Below, piece by piece: positions 14,880-22,105 of a DNA stretch of 22,105 nt. The notes under the pieces were generated by a model. The model saw nothing but the letters and a program-made list of their open reading frames with translations. It was not told the DNA's origin and made no database searches. How positions within the stretch are numbered: position 1 is the stretch's first letter; each line of letters begins with the position of its first letter. The stretch spans positions 1 through 22,105 of the IMG/VR virus record IMGVR_UViG_3300038421_000026; one strand, 5' to 3'. Origin of the DNA: a virus. Made by a program: the position numbers and the translations under genes.

Positions 14880-14904
14880 GCCTGTCTATTCAGACCGGAC
14901 AGGC
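14880..14904 (-). promoter_or_regulatory. Hairpin in the leader of the replication operon
   Basis: GCCTGTC (14880-14886) pairs perfectly with GACAGGC (14898-14904) around an 11-base loop. On the minus strand it ends 8 bases before the ATG at 14871, where it could occlude or set the spacing of ribosome entry. On the plus strand it precedes an orphan AAGGAGG (14915-14921) with no good start codon after it. Confidence 0.45.
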
Positions 14905-14938
14905 ACGGGCTATAAGGAGGATCGGAGAGAAAAATTAA

Positions 14939-15029
14939 TTGGTGGGAGTTTACGTAGTTCATCTCAATTATCGGCTTAGCCCACCATATCAGGGTTACCC
15001 AGCGGAGATGTTCTCGATACTCTCACCAA
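14939..15029. other. Structured inverted-repeat element between divergent operons
   Basis: TTGGTGGGAG (14939-14948) pairs with CTCTCACCAA (15020-15029; nine Watson-Crick pairs and one G-T). Inside, CATCTC (14960-14965) pairs with GAGATG (15005-15010), and the inner loop holds two mini-hairpins, GGCttaGCC and GGGttaCCC. TGGTGGG could instead pair with CCCACCA (14980-14986), giving two mutually exclusive folds. It lies in the 304-base gap between the replication operon and the rightward operon. It could be a cis-regulatory RNA or an origin structure. The 110 bases to its right are AT-rich with nothing else seen before the promoter. Confidence 0.5.
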
Positions 15030-15139
15030 ATTTTGGAATGAAATTATTTTAAGTCTTTTGTTAAAAAAGTCAAGAAAAAATTGAAAGATTAAAATATTCT
15101 AATCTGATTGTAATTAAATGCACAAGAAAATTAAAACGC

Positions 15140-15168
15140 TTGACAAATTAAAAAAGATTTTTTATTAT
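15140..15168 (+). promoter_or_regulatory. Strong sigma-70 promoter of the rightward operon
   Basis: TTGACA (15140-15145), an exact 17-base spacer and TATTAT (15163-15168) form a near-perfect promoter. Initiation is expected at about 15175, immediately before the ATG at 15176, so the first transcript would be leaderless or nearly so. Confidence 0.8.
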
Positions 15169-15175
15169 CTTAATC

Positions 15176-15331
15176 ATGAAAATCAAAGTTGAACTTTATA
15201 AGTGCCTGCGCTGTGGATATGATTGGATCGGAAGGCTTGACCGTCTACCAAAGCAGTGCGCCCATTGTCATTCGACAAGGTGGAATATTCCAAGAAAAGA
15301 CAATCTCAATCAAAGGAGAAATAGAATTTAA
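15176..15331 (+). CDS. 51 aa zinc-ribbon protein, leaderless
   Basis: ATG 15176 to TAA 15329-15331. The product begins MKIKVELYKCLRCGYDWIGR and continues RLPKQCAHCHSTRWNIPRK. CLRC (Cys10, Cys13) and CAHC (Cys28, Cys31) form a zinc ribbon typical of small bacterial and phage regulators. There is no ribosome binding site; the -10 box is 7 bases upstream, so translation from a leaderless message is inferred. A longer open frame on the same strand from 15189 overlaps it out of frame and is better explained by the downstream HNH gene with its own start at 15333. Confidence 0.7.
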   Translation: MKIKVELYKCLRCGYDWIGRLDRLPKQCAHCHSTRWNIPRKDNLNQRRNRI

Positions 15332-15332
15332 T

Positions 15333-15707
15333 ATGACGAAATTGTTCCATCAAAATAAATTACTTCTTCTTGAATCTTGCGAACATAGGTGTTCAATGTG
15401 CGGAAAGAAAACTAACCAAATACATCATTTGGATAAAAATAGAAACAATAATGAAATAACGAATCTAATCGTTACGTGTTCTGGTTGCCATAAATTAATA
15501 TTTCATTCCATAAAAAAACCTGACTTTAATAATCCAGTTTTGAAACTTCTTATGATTGCTCACATTCCAAGAAAAAAAATAATTCAATTAACAGGTATAT
15601 CCAGTTCAAGAATATCTGACATTATAAGGGGCAAAATTACAAAAGAACAAAGGAAGGCTTTTTTTAATGCCTTTGGCATTGATACCTGGGAGTGGGATGA
15701 GAAATGA
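15333..15707 (+). CDS. HNH endonuclease with C-terminal HTH
   Basis: 124 aa from ATG 15333, which has GGAG 14 bases upstream; a longer frame to 15189 would overlap the zinc-ribbon gene and lacks a site. CSMC (Cys20, Cys23), IHHLD (His31, His32, Asp34), an Asn at 44 and CSGCH (Cys49, Cys52, His53) make a zinc-bound HNH nuclease. The C-terminal IPRKKIIQLTGISSSRISDI (80-99) is a helix-turn-helix. This architecture is typical of free-standing homing endonucleases in phages. The stop overlaps the next gene by four bases. Confidence 0.75.
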   Translation: MTKLFHQNKLLLLESCEHRCSMCGKKTNQIHHLDKNRNNNEITNLIVTCSGCHKLIFHSIKKPDFNNPVLKLLMIAHIPRKKIIQLTGISSSRISDIIRGKITKEQRKAFFNAFGIDTWEWDEK

Positions 15708-16324
15708 TACGAGATGATTTAACTGGACGAAAGTTTGGAAAATTAACCGTTCTTAATCAAGCTCCCAATCGGGGTAAAAGGATATATTGGAACGTTATTT
15801 GTGATTGTGGAAAGAAAAAAGAAGTCGGGGCTTCACCGTTGAGGGATGGAAGAACGGTTTCTTGTGGTTGTATCAGAATAATTCATGGTCTCTGTAATAC
15901 AAAAATCCATTCTATTTGGAATGGTATGCGTCAACGATGCAACAATCCCAAAAATCCACGATACCATCAATATGGTGGTAGAGGCATTAAAATATGTGAT
16001 CGATGGGATTCATTTAAAAATTTCCTAACCGATATGGGTATACTTCCTAATGGAATGTCTCTTGACCGTATAGATATTAACGGGAATTATGAACCAACCA
16101 ATTGTCGATGGGCCACTCAATTTCAGCAATCTAACAACATGAGAAAAAATATGAGATTAAGATTTAAAGGAAAAGTATTTACCCTATCTGAAATATCTAA
16201 AATTACAGGTATTCATAAAGATACACTCCGAGTTAGAATTAAAAGACATTGGCCTTATCAAAAATTATTTAATTTCCCAAAATGGGTAAGACACGATCTT
16301 ACGCCTTCTGTAAATAAAGGATGA
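15704..16324 (+). CDS. HNH/AP2-type homing endonuclease-like protein
   Basis: 206 aa. The N-terminus has a CDCG...CGC cluster (Cys33, Cys35, Cys54, Cys56). The core reads HSIWNGMRQRCNNPKNPRYH, YGGRGIKICDRW, then SLDRIDINGNYEPTNCRWAT (residues 119-138), a pattern very common in phage HNH-like/AP2 DNA-binding endonucleases. A C-terminal HTH lies at ~158-182 (TLSEISKITGIHKDTLRVRI). Members of this group nick or cut DNA and spread to neighbouring loci. It is coupled (ATGA) to the preceding HNH gene, so two different homing-type enzymes lie in tandem. Confidence 0.75.
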   Translation: MIRDDLTGRKFGKLTVLNQAPNRGKRIYWNVICDCGKKKEVGASPLRDGRTVSCGCIRIIHGLCNTKIHSIWNGMRQRCNNPKNPRYHQYGGRGIKICDRWDSFKNFLTDMGILPNGMSLDRIDINGNYEPTNCRWATQFQQSNNMRKNMRLRFKGKVFTLSEISKITGIHKDTLRVRIKRHWPYQKLFNFPKWVRHDLTPSVNKG

Positions 16325-16451
16325 AATGGAATCAGGTTAAAAAAAATGAATCAAATCAAAAATAGAATGACTCCAAAGCAATTATTAATCTTTGCAATTC
16401 GAGTGATTTGTTATGGCAATTTTTTTAGAACAATGAAAGGAGAAATGAAAA

Positions 16452-16649
16452 ATGAAAAAAACATCATGCATAGCTCTGGCAGACGGGGATCGAATTAATC
16501 TAATTATTATGAAAGGTGAGAAAGGATATTCAGCGTTTGCTAAAGTATTGAAGACCATTGATAAAAAGGGATTTATGTCGTGGTATGGAGATGTTACAAC
16601 GGCAGATGGCAAAGAACAAAGTGGCCTAATCATAACCTGTAAGCCATAA
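16452..16649 (+). CDS. Hypothetical 65 aa protein
   Basis: Not recognised. The product reads MKKTSCIALADGDRINLIIM, then KGEKGYSAFAKVLKTIDKKG and TTADGKEQSGLIITCKP. It looks like a small all-beta domain. AAAGGAG lies 9 bases before the ATG, which strongly supports expression. It sits between the HNH pair and the structured segment. The C-terminal half has a strand-turn-strand layout, but no motif. Confidence 0.55.
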   Translation: MKKTSCIALADGDRINLIIMKGEKGYSAFAKVLKTIDKKGFMSWYGDVTTADGKEQSGLIITCKP

Positions 16650-16757
16650 CCATAATAAGCCTAAGCATATCAGGCATTTTAATAGTGATATTATTAAGAA
16701 TGAATTAAAGATGAATCATCAAAAAATTACTATTTCTTCTGAGTCTAAACGTAAGAC

Positions 16758-16973
16758 CCTCAAATCGGCTTCGGGCTGAGGCGTAGGGCAGGGAGACTGT
16801 GAGGAAGAATTAATCCAAGGTGGCTGGGATGCCATAGGAAGCAATGGATAGGTGATTCACAACGGAGGAATATCTAAATAAAGCCGTTCGGAAGGGACAC
16901 AGCCCGTGAACCAAGCGGGACAAAAGAAGGAAAGGTGGGGGATTGATAATAAGGGGGAATCGATCAACGGCTT
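16758..16973 (+). ncRNA. Candidate structured RNA or regulatory leader
   Basis: A 340-base gene-free stretch (16650-16990) whose right two thirds are more GC-rich and purine-rich than the surroundings. Pairings: CCTCA (16758-16762) with TGAGG (16777-16781); ATCCA (16813-16817) with TGGAT (16845-16849), enclosing TGGC (16821-16824) with GCCA (16831-16834); AAGCCGTT (16881-16888) with AACGGCTT (16966-16973), which encloses GATTGAT (16941-16947) with ATCGATC (16959-16965, one G-T). AACGG at 16861-16865 could compete for CCGTT. The ribosome binding site of the next gene follows immediately. No known RNA family was identified by eye. Bases 16650-16757 are AT-rich with nothing seen. Confidence 0.6.
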
Positions 16974-16990
16974 AGAAAGGAGGGATTAAA

Positions 16991-17203
16991 ATGATTACCA
17001 CCAAAGAAAAACAATTACTCAAAGATTGCGTTGATCTAATGTGGAGATGTTACCAGGAAGTCGCACATACTCCAGAAGATGATCATTGGAGCCGGATAGC
17101 GATGCAGGCAAAAGACTTACATCAATCGATCCTTAACGAAGGGATAGAATATGCCATTTCTGATTTGTCAGAAATCCAAACAGAAAATGAAAGTAGACAT
17201 TAA
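16991..17203 (+). CDS. Hypothetical acidic helical 70 aa protein
   Basis: Not recognised. The sequence is helical and acidic (KEKQLLKDCVDLMWRCYQEV, later WSRIAMQAKDLHQSILNEGI and EIQTENESRH). AGAAAGGAGGG lies 7 bases before the ATG and directly abuts the right arm of the long-range stem of the upstream structured RNA, so its translation could be controlled by that structure. It resembles small helical early phage proteins that bind host factors, but this is only a composition-based impression. Confidence 0.55.
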   Translation: MITTKEKQLLKDCVDLMWRCYQEVAHTPEDDHWSRIAMQAKDLHQSILNEGIEYAISDLSEIQTENESRH

Positions 17204-17315
17204 AATTTGTTTCCACGCTCTATGTCCATATGTTCAGCTTCTTTCCGATGGAGAAGCGACTTGTATCTTTGAATCAAACTTACAAAAAGAAATTCAAAAA
17301 AGAAAGAAGAAATGA
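17187..17315 (+). CDS. 42 aa Cys-containing mini-protein
   Basis: ATG 17187 lies inside the 3' end of the 70 aa gene (17-base overlap). The product begins MKVDIKICFHALCPYVQLLS and ends in a basic tail KEIQKRKKK. Cys8, His10, Cys13 and Cys26 could bind one zinc ion. The ribosome binding site is weak, so coupling to the upstream gene is assumed. The stop overlaps the next ATG (ATGA). The function is unknown. Confidence 0.5.
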   Translation: MKVDIKICFHALCPYVQLLSDGEATCIFESNLQKEIQKRKKK

Positions 17316-17395
17316 AAACAATCCTAAAATTATTCATACCTGCTATAATATACATTGGGATCGTAGTTTGGATAATTGAGAAAGTAGCTAAATAA
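17312..17395 (+). CDS. 27 aa single-span membrane peptide
   Basis: ATG overlaps the previous stop (ATGA), with AGAAAGAAG as a weak site. The peptide is almost entirely one hydrophobic helix: after MKTILK come LFIPAIIYIGIVVWII and a charged tail EKVAK, so the N-terminus and the C-terminus both carry lysines. It could insert in the inner membrane, as do known small phage membrane peptides. Nothing else can be assigned. Confidence 0.45.
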   Translation: MKTILKLFIPAIIYIGIVVWIIEKVAK

Positions 17396-17399
17396 AAAT

Positions 17400-17654
17400 A
17401 TGCAAGAATTCTGGTTCAAAGGCCAACGAAAAATAATCCGACGCAAGAAAATTAAGGCTTTCCTCTGGGGTCTTGTCATTGGTGCAATTATTTTCTTGCC
17501 TTGTGGGTATAGATGGAGGATGGCTCAAACCGAGAAGAATTATCAAATTGAGATTGGAAAATTAAAAAATAAGATAGTCATTTTCCAATCAACCTGGACT
17601 CCAATAAAAGAAAAATCAATTATGCAAGAAAAGAGAGAGAAAATAAAAAAATGA
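17400..17654 (+). CDS. 84 aa membrane protein with cytosolic-basic N-terminus
   Basis: A very basic N-terminus (KGQRKIIRRKKIK) is followed by one membrane span at about residues 20-37 (AFLWGLVIGAIIFLPCGY) and a helical, charged remainder (AQTEKNYQIEIGKLKNK and on). The topology would be inside-basic, outside-helical, like inner-membrane spanin subunits, but no lipoprotein partner overlaps it, so that name is not used. It starts 4 bases after the previous stop with no clear ribosome binding site. Confidence 0.55.
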   Translation: MQEFWFKGQRKIIRRKKIKAFLWGLVIGAIIFLPCGYRWRMAQTEKNYQIEIGKLKNKIVIFQSTWTPIKEKSIMQEKREKIKK

Positions 17655-17663
17655 GGAAATTAC

Positions 17664-17855
17664 ATGCTTACCAAACTAAAGATTTCATTCCTTAAATGGC
17701 AGATCCGGCATTTAGCCAAAGGGTATCACTTGGCCAAAAATCCTGTTCGTATTCCGAGAAAAAGGCATACATTGGAGAATACGATTACTGAGGAATATCA
17801 GCGACAAGCCATTGAAGGGAAGTTGCTTAAGGAATTGATGGGGAATGGAGATTAA
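17664..17855 (+). CDS. Hypothetical basic 63 aa protein
   Basis: ATG 17664 has GAGG 8 bases upstream. The product begins MLTKLKISFLKWQIRHLAKG and continues with basic KNPVRIPRKRHTLENTITEE and a helical C-terminus (YQRQAIEGKLLKELMGNGD). The first 20 residues form an amphipathic helix, and the centre is strongly positive. It is not recognised; nucleic acid or membrane surface binding are possible. A 14-codon frame at 17651-17695 overlaps its start and is not called. Confidence 0.5.
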   Translation: MLTKLKISFLKWQIRHLAKGYHLAKNPVRIPRKRHTLENTITEEYQRQAIEGKLLKELMGNGD

Positions 17856-17856
17856 T

Positions 17857-17964
17857 ATGGACGAACTCATTGAAGTAATCAAAGAGATTGCTGATCCTTG
17901 GGGATGGGTAAGATCCATAGAAAAATTGCCAAAGGAGGAAGAAGATGGAAACACTAGCAACTAA
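17857..17964 (+). CDS. 35 aa acidic mini-protein overlapping the recombination gene
   Basis: ATG 17857 has GGAGATTAAT just upstream. The product is MDELIEVIKEIADPWGWVRS followed by IEKLPKEEEDGNTSN, an acidic helix with a WGW turn. Its last 20 bases overlap the start of the 293 aa gene, whose ribosome binding site (AAAGGAGG) lies within this frame, so ribosome passage may help open that site. It may be a real peptide or a coupling leader. Confidence 0.4.
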   Translation: MDELIEVIKEIADPWGWVRSIEKLPKEEEDGNTSN

Positions 17965-18826
17965 AGATATTACCGTTTACAGAGACCCAAAGGTAGTTCT
18001 TGAAGAAGCCCATAGAGCAGCGGAGGCTCTTACTGATGTCGTAAAGGCCAAGCCTAAAAAAGTCATTATCAATGATGAACAATATCTGGAATTTGAAGAT
18101 TGGCAGACTCTTGGTCGATTCTATGGTCTTACTGTTAAGGTCGAATGGACAAAGCCCGTTAACATGGAAGGTGTTCGAGGATGGGAGGCCCAGGCTGTTG
18201 TTCTTGATCGAGAAGGAAATATCATCAGTAGTGCTGAAGCCATGTGTCTAAATGATGAGGAAAAGTGGTCGACAAAGGCAAAATATGAATATCAATATGT
18301 ACTTAAAGATGGATCGAAGATGACAAACGATCCTCCAAAAGATCAAATGATATGGGTTGAGAACCCCAATAAGCCAGGCAAAAGAATGCCTAAAAAGGAA
18401 CGTGTTAAAATTGCAGATCAACCCGTACCATCTTTCCAACTTCGATCTATGTCTCAAACGAGAGCTTGTGCAAAGGCATTTAGAAATGTATTGGCATGGG
18501 TTGTTGTCTTGGCCGGATATAAACCGACTCCAGCGGAAGAAATGCAGGAAGTTGTCGAGACGGAAGCAATTGAAACTATTGAATCTGAAAACAAGACCGA
18601 ATCTTACATCGAATCTATACCAGGCACCACGGAGAAATTACAAGATCAAATCAATTTCCTTGAAGAGATGGCAAAGTATCGAGTGAAGGTGGGGAGATCG
18701 AAATATGAAGAAATTCTTACTGGGAAATATACCTATATGAAAGCCGAAGATGTTTCAAAGAAAGAACAGCCTGAAATTCTTAAAGAGATGGAAGTCGCTT
18801 ATAAAGAAAGGACAGCGAAGAAATGA
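17945..18826 (+). CDS. Conserved phage protein, possible single-strand annealing protein
   Basis: 293 aa. The core (residues 40-200) has QYLEFEDWQTLGRFYGLTVK, then RGWEAQAVVLDREGNIISSA, WSTKAKYEYQ and SFQLRSMSQTRACAKAFRNV followed by LAWVVVLAGYKPTPAEEM. This SMxQTRAxAKAxRNxLAW signature occurs in a widespread phage protein group next to nucleases. The layout resembles Erf/Rad52-like annealing proteins (beta core followed by a conserved RxxAxxxA helix), which is inference. The C-terminal ~90 residues are acidic and helical. AAGGAGG lies 6 bases before the ATG. The RecB-like exonuclease gene downstream fits a recombination pair. Confidence 0.6.
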   Translation: METLATKDITVYRDPKVVLEEAHRAAEALTDVVKAKPKKVIINDEQYLEFEDWQTLGRFYGLTVKVEWTKPVNMEGVRGWEAQAVVLDREGNIISSAEAMCLNDEEKWSTKAKYEYQYVLKDGSKMTNDPPKDQMIWVENPNKPGKRMPKKERVKIADQPVPSFQLRSMSQTRACAKAFRNVLAWVVVLAGYKPTPAEEMQEVVETEAIETIESENKTESYIESIPGTTEKLQDQINFLEEMAKYRVKVGRSKYEEILTGKYTYMKAEDVSKKEQPEILKEMEVAYKERTAKK

Positions 18827-20939: not shown

Positions 20940-20952
20940 CACAGGAGAGTAA

Positions 20953-21207
20953 ATGGAAAAAATGAAGGACGCTATTCAGCGTCCGGTTGATGAAGTTGTT
21001 AGTACTGTTAATGCCACTGTTGATGTTTTGTTGTCGGATCACGTCGGAGAGTTGGCTGATAGATTAACGTTCTGTATGGCAAATATCAGCTTTACGGCAT
21101 CCGAGAGGCTACAGCTTTTTGCCTTGCTTATCCTCTGCAAACAGGCCAAACAAGGCTTGGCACAGTTAAGCATTGCCGATGTGATGAGGGTGTATGAGAG
21201 GTGCTAA
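20953..21207 (+). CDS. Hypothetical helical 84 aa protein
   Basis: Not recognised. The protein starts MEKMKDAIQRPVDEVVSTVN and is predicted mainly helical, with a leucine-rich second half (SERLQLFALLILCKQAKQGL). The base composition is less AT-rich than upstream genes. AGGAG stands 7 bases before the ATG. The hydrophobic stretch RLQLFALLILC is too short and polar-flanked for a confident membrane call. Tandem hairpins follow the stop. Confidence 0.55.
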   Translation: MEKMKDAIQRPVDEVVSTVNATVDVLLSDHVGELADRLTFCMANISFTASERLQLFALLILCKQAKQGLAQLSIADVMRVYERC

Positions 21208-21216
21208 CACGGAATT

Positions 21217-21257
21217 GACCGCCCTTATGCGGTCGAATGACTGGTTATGCCAGTCAT
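21217..21257 (+). terminator. Tandem hairpins after the 84 aa gene
   Basis: GACCGC (21217-21222) pairs with GCGGTC (21229-21234), and ATGACTGG (21237-21244) pairs perfectly with CCAGTCAT (21250-21257), followed by ATTTTG. The T-tract is short, so this may be a partial terminator or a processing site ahead of the ribosome binding site at 21270-21275. Confidence 0.45.
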
Positions 21258-21281
21258 ATTTTGAAAATGGAGGATATTAAA

Positions 21282-21426
21282 ATGGCAAAGAAACAATTTC
21301 CGATGAATGCTCTGTGAAGACTCGTCCATGCAGTCTATATCCAGGGTTGTTGATGTCTCAATAAATACGGGAGTTACGAATCGGCTTTGGGAGATTGAAG
21401 ATATTATTTCTCTCTTAGGTCCCTGA
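21282..21426 (+). pseudogene. Broken small gene (frameshift) or 11-codon leader plus 39 aa frame
   Basis: GGAGG lies 7 bases before ATG 21282, but the frame MAKKQFPMNAL stops after 11 codons (TGA 21315-21317). A second frame, shifted by +1, opens at ATG 21307 and runs 39 codons to 21426: MLCEDSSMQSISRVVDVSIN, then TGVTNRLWEIEDIISLLGP. That second sequence looks like real protein (VTNRLWEIEDIISLL resembles C-termini of small bacterial proteins) but has no ribosome binding site. A single-base frameshift between 21284 and 21309 would join them into one gene of ~47 aa. Confidence 0.5.
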
Positions 21427-21570
21427 TTCGTTTGAGGATGAAGTATCGCGAATATAAATGGTACTTGGCGTTTTTTCACTTTCATCTGTAACGTATATTA
21501 TGAATTCCCAGTTTTTAGCCACTTCTCGCCAGTTTTCCATATTATATTCTATCGTTGATTCTTGAAGCAT
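21415..21570 (-). CDS. 51 aa hypothetical protein on the opposite strand
   Basis: ATG 21568-21570 has AAGGAG 6-7 bases upstream on the minus strand and runs to TAA 21415-21417. The product reads MLQESTIEYNMENWREVAKN, then WEFIIYVTDESEKTPSTIYI and RDTSSSNESGT. It is soluble and acidic. It converges on the broken plus-strand gene, with their ends overlapping by 12 bases. No family is recognised. Confidence 0.55.
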   Translation of the reverse strand: MLQESTIEYNMENWREVAKNWEFIIYVTDESEKTPSTIYIRDTSSSNESGT

Positions 21571-21661
21571 TTTTAACTCCTTCTTTATTTTTAACAGTTA
21601 TTGTTCTAATTCGCCATGTGGTTGTTTCCGCTTCGTTTGGTCTCCTTTTTAGAAAAAACCC

Positions 21662-22099
21662 TTAGAACGAGATGAAAGACGGAAGATACTTCATCACTTG
21701 GGACCATACATTGGGAGCATACTGGTTGACGAGTGCCCCGATCGCGGGTGCGATCAGCTTCCCCAAATACATCACCGATGCGGCGGAGTCTGCCTCGGTC
21801 ATGGCATCCTGACCAGCACAAAACTTGGCGCACATGTCATCCAGGGCCTTCAGTGACTTTCCGAACTCTGCTGGTAGTTTGGTCCCGATCACTTCATCCC
21901 CAATGCCGATATGAATTGCCTGACTATTCATGGCCCAATGCTTCATGATCTGCTTGCCAGCAGCCATCGTTGCGGCCGCGTTCTGGTCATCGAACTGCGC
22001 GATCTGCGGCTGAATAGTCGCGCAACCCGCAAGCGCCATCATCATGACCGTAACCAGAAGCAACCCGACCAATGTAAATCTTTCTAATCTTCTTTTCAT
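21662..22099 (-). CDS. Lipoprotein of unknown function, GC-rich
   Basis: 145 aa. A classical lipoprotein signal is visible: MKRRLERFT, a hydrophobic core LVGLLLVTVMMMALAG and the lipobox LAGC with Cys26 as the modified residue. The remaining ~120 residues are helical (AATMAAGKQIMKHWAMNSQA; later LGKLIAPAIGALVNQYAPNV). Asp is not at +2 (Ala is), so outer-membrane sorting is expected in a Gram-negative host. The codon use is clearly more GC-rich than everything to the left. A prophage or host lipoprotein, or a lysis-related protein, are possible. The upstream ribosome binding site lies beyond the window. Confidence 0.7.
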   Translation of the reverse strand: MKRRLERFTLVGLLLVTVMMMALAGCATIQPQIAQFDDQNAAATMAAGKQIMKHWAMNSQAIHIGIGDEVIGTKLPAEFGKSLKALDDMCAKFCAGQDAMTEADSAASVMYLGKLIAPAIGALVNQYAPNVWSQVMKYLPSFISF

Positions 22100-22105
22100 G
22101 TTTGG

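Follow-up and report, generated by a model that had tools for sequence, protein, structure and literature searches.

Structured RNAs in phages range from GOLLD and ROOL, which are large structured noncoding RNAs, to the T4 gene 32 leader pseudoknot, an mRNA structure upstream of a ribosome binding site (RBS) that serves autoregulation. The put RNAs of HK022 have ~70 nt and two stem-loops, and putR lies ~270 nt from its promoter and acts without a phage protein (PMC9378689). The kink-turn of OLE RNA is needed for recognition by OapC (PMC9723947). Here, we describe a kink-turn RNA that occupies a fixed place in the early operons of four uncultivated phages and that defines a new structured RNA family, given that it has no match in Rfam and that we found no description of such an element in the literature.

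Results

The element was seen in IMGVR_UViG_3300038421_000026 (G000), a whole virus record of 22,105 bases that was analyzed at full length and is called the window here. The window phage is an uncultivated podovirus, for which the closest named phages are HTVC010P-like pelagiphages with a portal identity of ~33-42%. Its structural genes (capsid, portal and terminase) run leftward and its early genes rightward, from ~15.1 kb. At the right end (20950-22105) the G+C content climbs to 48%, and a minus-strand lipoprotein-like ORF there (21662-22099) is without a PHROG family match; this end may represent a module gained recently or the edge of the assembly.

A sequence-only reading of the window had pointed to positions 16758-16973, between genes of 65 aa (16452-16649) and 70 aa (16991-17203), as a G-rich, gene-free segment and a possible new structured phage RNA. 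That observation is real. No other 216-nt stretch of the window is as rich in G (peak 36%), and the G+C content of the segment, at 51%, is the highest in the rightward half (<=46% elsewhere there). The perfect 8-bp stem reported in it (AAGCCGTT/AACGGCTT) is present and encloses the 7-bp hairpin GATTGAT(AATAAGGGGGA)ATCGATC with its G-run loop, and the RBS does follow directly behind the last helix. The statement that the segment has no frame was nearly right: stop codons close all frames across it, but a 22-codon ORF (MNHQKITISSESKRKTLKSASG) enters the first stem. The interval lies within the element but starts ~30 nt too late, and because the element begins at 16729 it misses part of the 5' domain, including half of the best-supported helix (16734-16746).

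Searching phage, plasmid and IMG/VR collections directly with the DNA of the window segment gave no match; portal and terminase relatives followed by synteny were the route that succeeded. The portal protein search returned close relatives in IMG/VR, and a terminase alignment of six rows led to 51 loci. Two of the portal relatives, G003 and G007, carry a homologue of the window gene at 17151-17315, which encodes a protein of 52-54 aa with conserved Cys residues (Cys-rich protein), and immediately 5' of that gene each has a noncoding segment; the two segments share a 106-nt core at 93% identity. The version in a further relative, G008, is recognizable but diverged, and was located by reading the start of the early operon. 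These three records (43.2 kb for G003, 21.9 kb for G007 and 41.1 kb for G008) share 54-58% portal and 73-81% capsid identity with the window, and the element occupies an equivalent position in all three, between the first small early genes and the Cys-rich protein. The known members are thus four (window, G003, G007 and G008), with a size of ~250 nt in the window and 200-370 nt across the set. Across 75 loci and 15 records, model searches detected the element in no phages other than the four with a gene for the Cys-rich protein, although its absence from the other records means little, given that most are fragments or distant. GTDB scans with the Cys-rich protein alignment and the terminase alignment gave no additional members. 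One weak model match, in L078 (E 0.23), sits in apparent coding sequence and was judged to be chance.

The four operons share one order: a promoter-like sequence is followed by one to three small genes and then by the element, with at most one small gene before the Cys-rich protein. The TTGACA-type boxes that precede the operon in all four phages are consensus matches only, and matches of this kind are not enriched over shuffles. A scan of window positions 14900-18000 found no plus-strand terminator. Both HNH genes that had been noted upstream in the window match PHROG HNH families; in the three relatives, different small genes occupy the place of this pair (15189-16324), and the two are likely homing-type insertions. 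Downstream, a 45-aa ORF intervenes before the Cys-rich protein in G008, as the 70-aa gene does in the window. In all four phages an ORF enters the 5' strand of the element in the same frame, with lengths from 22 codons (window) to 107 (G003). Some of the 5' conservation could stem from this ORF (peptide PISPES-like), which does not account for the matching changes in the 3' strands.

Table 1. Features of the element and its surroundings, in window coordinates.
Feature	Position	Strand	Basis
Putative early promoter, TTGACA-17-TATTAT	15140..15168	+	11/12 consensus match; presumed
Small HNH-type gene, outside element	15189..15707	+	PHROG HNH families, E 3e-8
Second HNH-type gene, outside element	15704..16324	+	phrog_374, E 2.5e-63
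22-codon ORF entering first stem, stop inside element	16711..16779	+	Frame as in ORFs of G003, G007, G008
Whole RNA element	16729..16985 (3' limit approximate)	+	Homologues in G003, G007, G008
5' domain: two-part stem, kink-turn, variable inner hairpin	16729..16816	+	Leave-one-out covariance model
Outer (NC) helix, UUCUUC/GAAGAA	16734..16739 / 16804-16809	+	6/6 pairs kept in 4/4 phages; 3 pairs doubly changed
Inner (C) helix, GUCU/AGAC	16743..16746 / 16794-16797	+	4/4 pairs kept in 4/4 phages; 2 pairs doubly changed
Kink-turn bulge UGU + GA, facing GA 16741-16742	16798..16802	+	Same in G003, G007; one base short in G008
Middle hairpin GUGGC/GCCAU (candidate)	16820..16835	+	Predicted folds only
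3' domain, closing 8-bp stem 16881-16888 / 16966-16973	16881..16973	+	8/8 pairs in window, G003, G007; 6/8 in G008; 4 pairs doubly changed
Motif CGGAAGGGACACAGC	16889..16903	+	G008 counterpart CGGAAGGGCCAGGCAGC, by sequence comparison
7-bp hairpin, G-run loop AAUAAGGGGGA	16941..16965	+	Sequence and predicted fold
Ribosome binding site AGAAAGGAGG	16974..16983	+	Abuts last helix
Next gene, 70 aa	16991..17203	+	Place taken by unrelated 45-aa ORF in G008
Small Cys-rich protein gene	17151..17315	+	Downstream of RNA in 4/4; alignment and HMM search

The 5' domain has the same plan in all four phages, in which a pyrimidine-rich strand comes first and a purine-rich strand last, followed by UUAR (Table 1). 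The outer helix is UUCUUC/GAAGAA in the window, CUCCCC/GGGGGG in G003, CUUUCC/GGAGAG in G007 and CUCUCC/GGAGAG in G008, and the inner helix is GUCU/AGAC, GUCC/GGAC, GACU/GGUC and GACC/GGUC, respectively. One strand has U-GA between the two helices, and the opposite strand has UGU-GA (CGU-GA in G007). The window (16734-16809), G003 and G007 hence have the layout of a kink-turn (C stem, 3-nt bulge, tandem G.A/A.G, NC stem), and G008 is without the standard form, given that its GA strand is one base short. In dinucleotide shuffles the strict kink-turn descriptor was found at rates of 2/1000 (window), 5/1000 (G003) and 7/1000 (G007).

The 3' domain is bounded by the closing stem, with the counterparts AAGCCGUU/AACGGCUU in the window, UGGCCGGU/ACCGGCCA in G003, UGGCCGGU/ACCGGUCA in G007 and UUUACGGU/ACCGUUUA in G008, where it extends as GGCAAAU/AUUUGCC. 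Taken alone, the G008 closing helix is not significant with G-U pairs allowed (263/1000 shuffles). The 3' ends of the element in G007 and G003 carry UAGAAAGGGG or AGAAAGGAG; the closing helix runs directly into AGAAAGGAG in the window and G003, is separated from the RBS by an extra domain in G007, and is followed by a short hairpin region in G008. The length inside the closing helix varies from ~60 to 170 nt among the four. By inspection, G-run loops occur in the inner hairpins of G003, G007 and G008 too, and one such hairpin in each phage is as far as the predicted interior fold is supported. A switch between two folds through AACGG at 16861-16865 had also been suggested: the competition could occur in the window, but the relatives do not have that competing strand.

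Statistical support was assessed on a block alignment of the paired strands from the four phages. Across the three helices (18 pairs, 72 cells) 97.2% of the cells pair, and nine of the 18 pairs change on both sides, which was matched by 0/500 shuffles; when partners are slid by one column, pairing falls to ~52%. The blocks were aligned by hand, with one N inserted for the missing G008 base, and the helices were picked after inspection, except for the 8-bp stem, which the sequence-only reading had taken from the window alone, and the leave-one-out model. That covariance model was built from G003, G007 and G008 only and never saw the window, in which its sole match is 16729-16816 (35.8 bits, E 1.9e-8). 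Over 443 kb of relatives, the same model finds the window at E 4e-7 and the next non-member at 0.23. The significance comes only from the relatives, given that the window sequence alone is not convincingly beyond chance: the single-sequence fold has an MFE z of -0.95 and is not significant (27/200 shuffles equally good), and 31/1000 shuffles contain a perfect partner for the 3' octamer. Two outcomes had been named as speaking against the sequence-only proposal, a lack of covariation and a reading frame kept throughout the segment, and neither is seen: the stems covary, and no frame extends in conserved form through the full element, of which only the 5' edge overlaps the end of the upstream ORF. 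Taken together, homology, three helices with compensatory changes and a constant position indicate that this is a conserved structured RNA, as had been proposed.

Rfam covariance models matched no part of the window at the gathering score, with nothing at E<=5 in 16100-17300; the scans covered the window, G003 and G007. G007 had no match, and the matches of G003 were at chance level, to four unrelated eukaryotic RNA models with E 3-5 and scores far under the cut-offs. Known Rfam riboswitch classes accordingly have no covariance-model match in these scans, and neither do GOLLD, ROOL and OLE. Group I and II introns, RNase P, SRP RNA and tmRNA were checked by eye and rejected, with no supporting strand and no Rfam or ARAGORN match. 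The motif CGGAAGGGACACAGCC resembles the GGAAGG..CAGCC loop of SRP RNA, which has no further support. A HEARO or omegaRNA identity, raised earlier on account of the HNH genes, fails: there is no Rfam match and no IscB or TnpB, and in the relatives the element is preceded by small genes of other kinds, with no neighboring HNH gene apparent. For the window HNH proteins (172 and 206 aa), all matches are to small phage HNH families and none to RuvC, IscB or TnpB.

Further spacers in these operons look structured. In G003, a second G-rich, structured-looking segment precedes an RBS (L024 8540-8341, minus strand); over its 3' part (8416-8349) it matches the 3' tail of the element in G007 (L027 11868-11931) at 77% identity, and a Cys-rich paralogue lies one gene past it (L024 8052-7915, HMM E 0.007). 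The arrangement of RNA and Cys-rich protein seems to be present twice in G003. Two other spacers, L024 7828-7735 (minus strand) and L027 ~16700-16840 (plus strand), share a GGUGGCUG-GUCGC/GCGA-GA-AGCC hairpin, which GGTGGCTGG at 16819-16827 of the window resembles; the former spacer has a closing stem GGGGUGG/CCACCCC, and the two spacers could represent another RNA family of these operons. The G-rich noncoding spacer L024 8890-8705 (minus strand) contains GGAACAGCCAAGTGCAG, like GGGACAGCCAAGAACAG at ~L024 8480, and the motif is repeated in G003 spacers.

Discussion

The explanation we favor, with a probability of about 0.5, is that the element regulates the downstream genes in cis, in response to either upstream ORF translation or a protein. 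Action in cis is favored because the element is part of the early transcript, is intergenic, has its closing helix at or near the RBS and is entered at its first stem by upstream translation; we infer this action, and an effect on translation, as parts of the best explanation. The element would set the expression of downstream genes after transcription start. Translation of the upstream ORF into the 5' strand of the kink-turn stem could open that stem or let it re-form, the pyrimidine-rich 5' strand could have two alternative pairing partners, its own 3' strand and the downstream RBS, and the kink-turn could keep the whole RNA in shape or bind a protein. The two pairings of the 5' strand have similar computed energies and are present in all four phages. 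They are no evidence for a switch, however, given that strands swapped between phages pair equally well, as is expected of pyrimidine and purine tracts. Switching between partner strands, and any ligand or protein, is therefore speculative. The leader-like position supports the riboswitch-like leader of the sequence-only reading, although the first downstream gene differs between phages, which would be odd for a gene-specific riboswitch.

A somewhat unlikely alternative is a trans-acting or RNP-forming noncoding RNA cut from the early transcript, for example one that works with the small Cys-rich protein. The high G content is consistent with this, as are the joint occurrence of element and Cys-rich protein gene among the examined records, the second Cys-rich paralogue in G003, again behind a G-rich segment, and the kink-turn, which is a protein-binding and folding motif (compare OLE RNA; PMC9723947). 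However, an RBS immediately behind the closing helix, as in the window and G003, suits a cis role, upstream ORFs overlap the 5' end, and the scan of the window found neither a terminator nor a separate promoter around the element.

Antitermination or anti-pausing, in which the nascent element would bind RNA polymerase in the manner of HK022 put and allow read-through of the long early operon, is in our judgment unlikely. The early operon is indeed long and runs in one direction, the element lies a few hundred nucleotides past a TTGACA-type promoter in the relatives, and the G003 operon contains more structured segments; HK022 putR likewise stands ~270 nt from its promoter and needs no phage protein (PMC9378689). 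The put RNAs, however, have two stem-loops in ~70 nt, whereas the element has 200-370 nt with a kink-turn, stands near RBSs and lies 1.5 kb from the putative promoter in the window, and the scan of 14900-18000 found no plus-strand terminator.

It is distinctly doubtful, as a more specific proposal, that we see the first member of a new phage RNA class that works with the downstream Cys-rich protein, as an RNP or as a protein-sensing leader; the kink-turn would then be a docking or folding site for that protein. A processing or stability element, with stems that mark RNase cleavage or protect mRNA segments without regulation, is quite improbable: its position is intercistronic and several structured-looking spacers occur in the same G003 operon, but a kink-turn together with conserved unpaired motifs (UUAR behind the first stem, GGUGCC and AGAAAGG) exceeds the needs of a simple cleavage stem. 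That the segment is no functional RNA but decayed coding sequence, similar through shared ancestry only, has next to no credibility, given that the nonsignificant fold energy of the window alone and the ORF overlapping the 5' edge in all four phages are set against nine pair-keeping double changes, stops in all frames and a kink-turn kept in three diverged phages.

On the cis-regulatory reading, phage early operons would still contain undescribed RNA-based control. An orphan Cys-rich protein family is now tied to a possible RNA partner, which is directly assayable, and the element can be assayed by reporter alone, for which the host is not needed.

Compared with known systems, the element shares with HEARO, IscB omegaRNA and TnpB reRNA an HNH gene upstream in the window, but here there is no IscB or TnpB and no HNH gene apparent beside the element in the relatives. 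With a few hundred nucleotides it is smaller than GOLLD and ROOL (500-900), and unlike them it lies between small operon genes and has no Rfam match. The T4 gene 32 leader is likewise a phage mRNA structure before an RBS but differs in size and sequence. Kink-turn bacterial leader RNAs and OLE RNA have the same standard kink-turn layout, whereas the element has no Rfam match, is much shorter than OLE and is so far seen in phage early operons only. HK022 put RNA, which suppresses termination in cis via the zinc-binding domain of the RNA polymerase beta' subunit, is also a structured phage RNA, and its location in an early transcript, downstream of an early promoter, would be shared if the TTGACA-type sequences here are promoters, but it is ~70 nt long and near its promoter, in contrast to 200-370 nt, a kink-turn and a position near RBSs. 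The sequence family appears to be new, and structured elements as a broad kind are already known from the early transcripts of phages.
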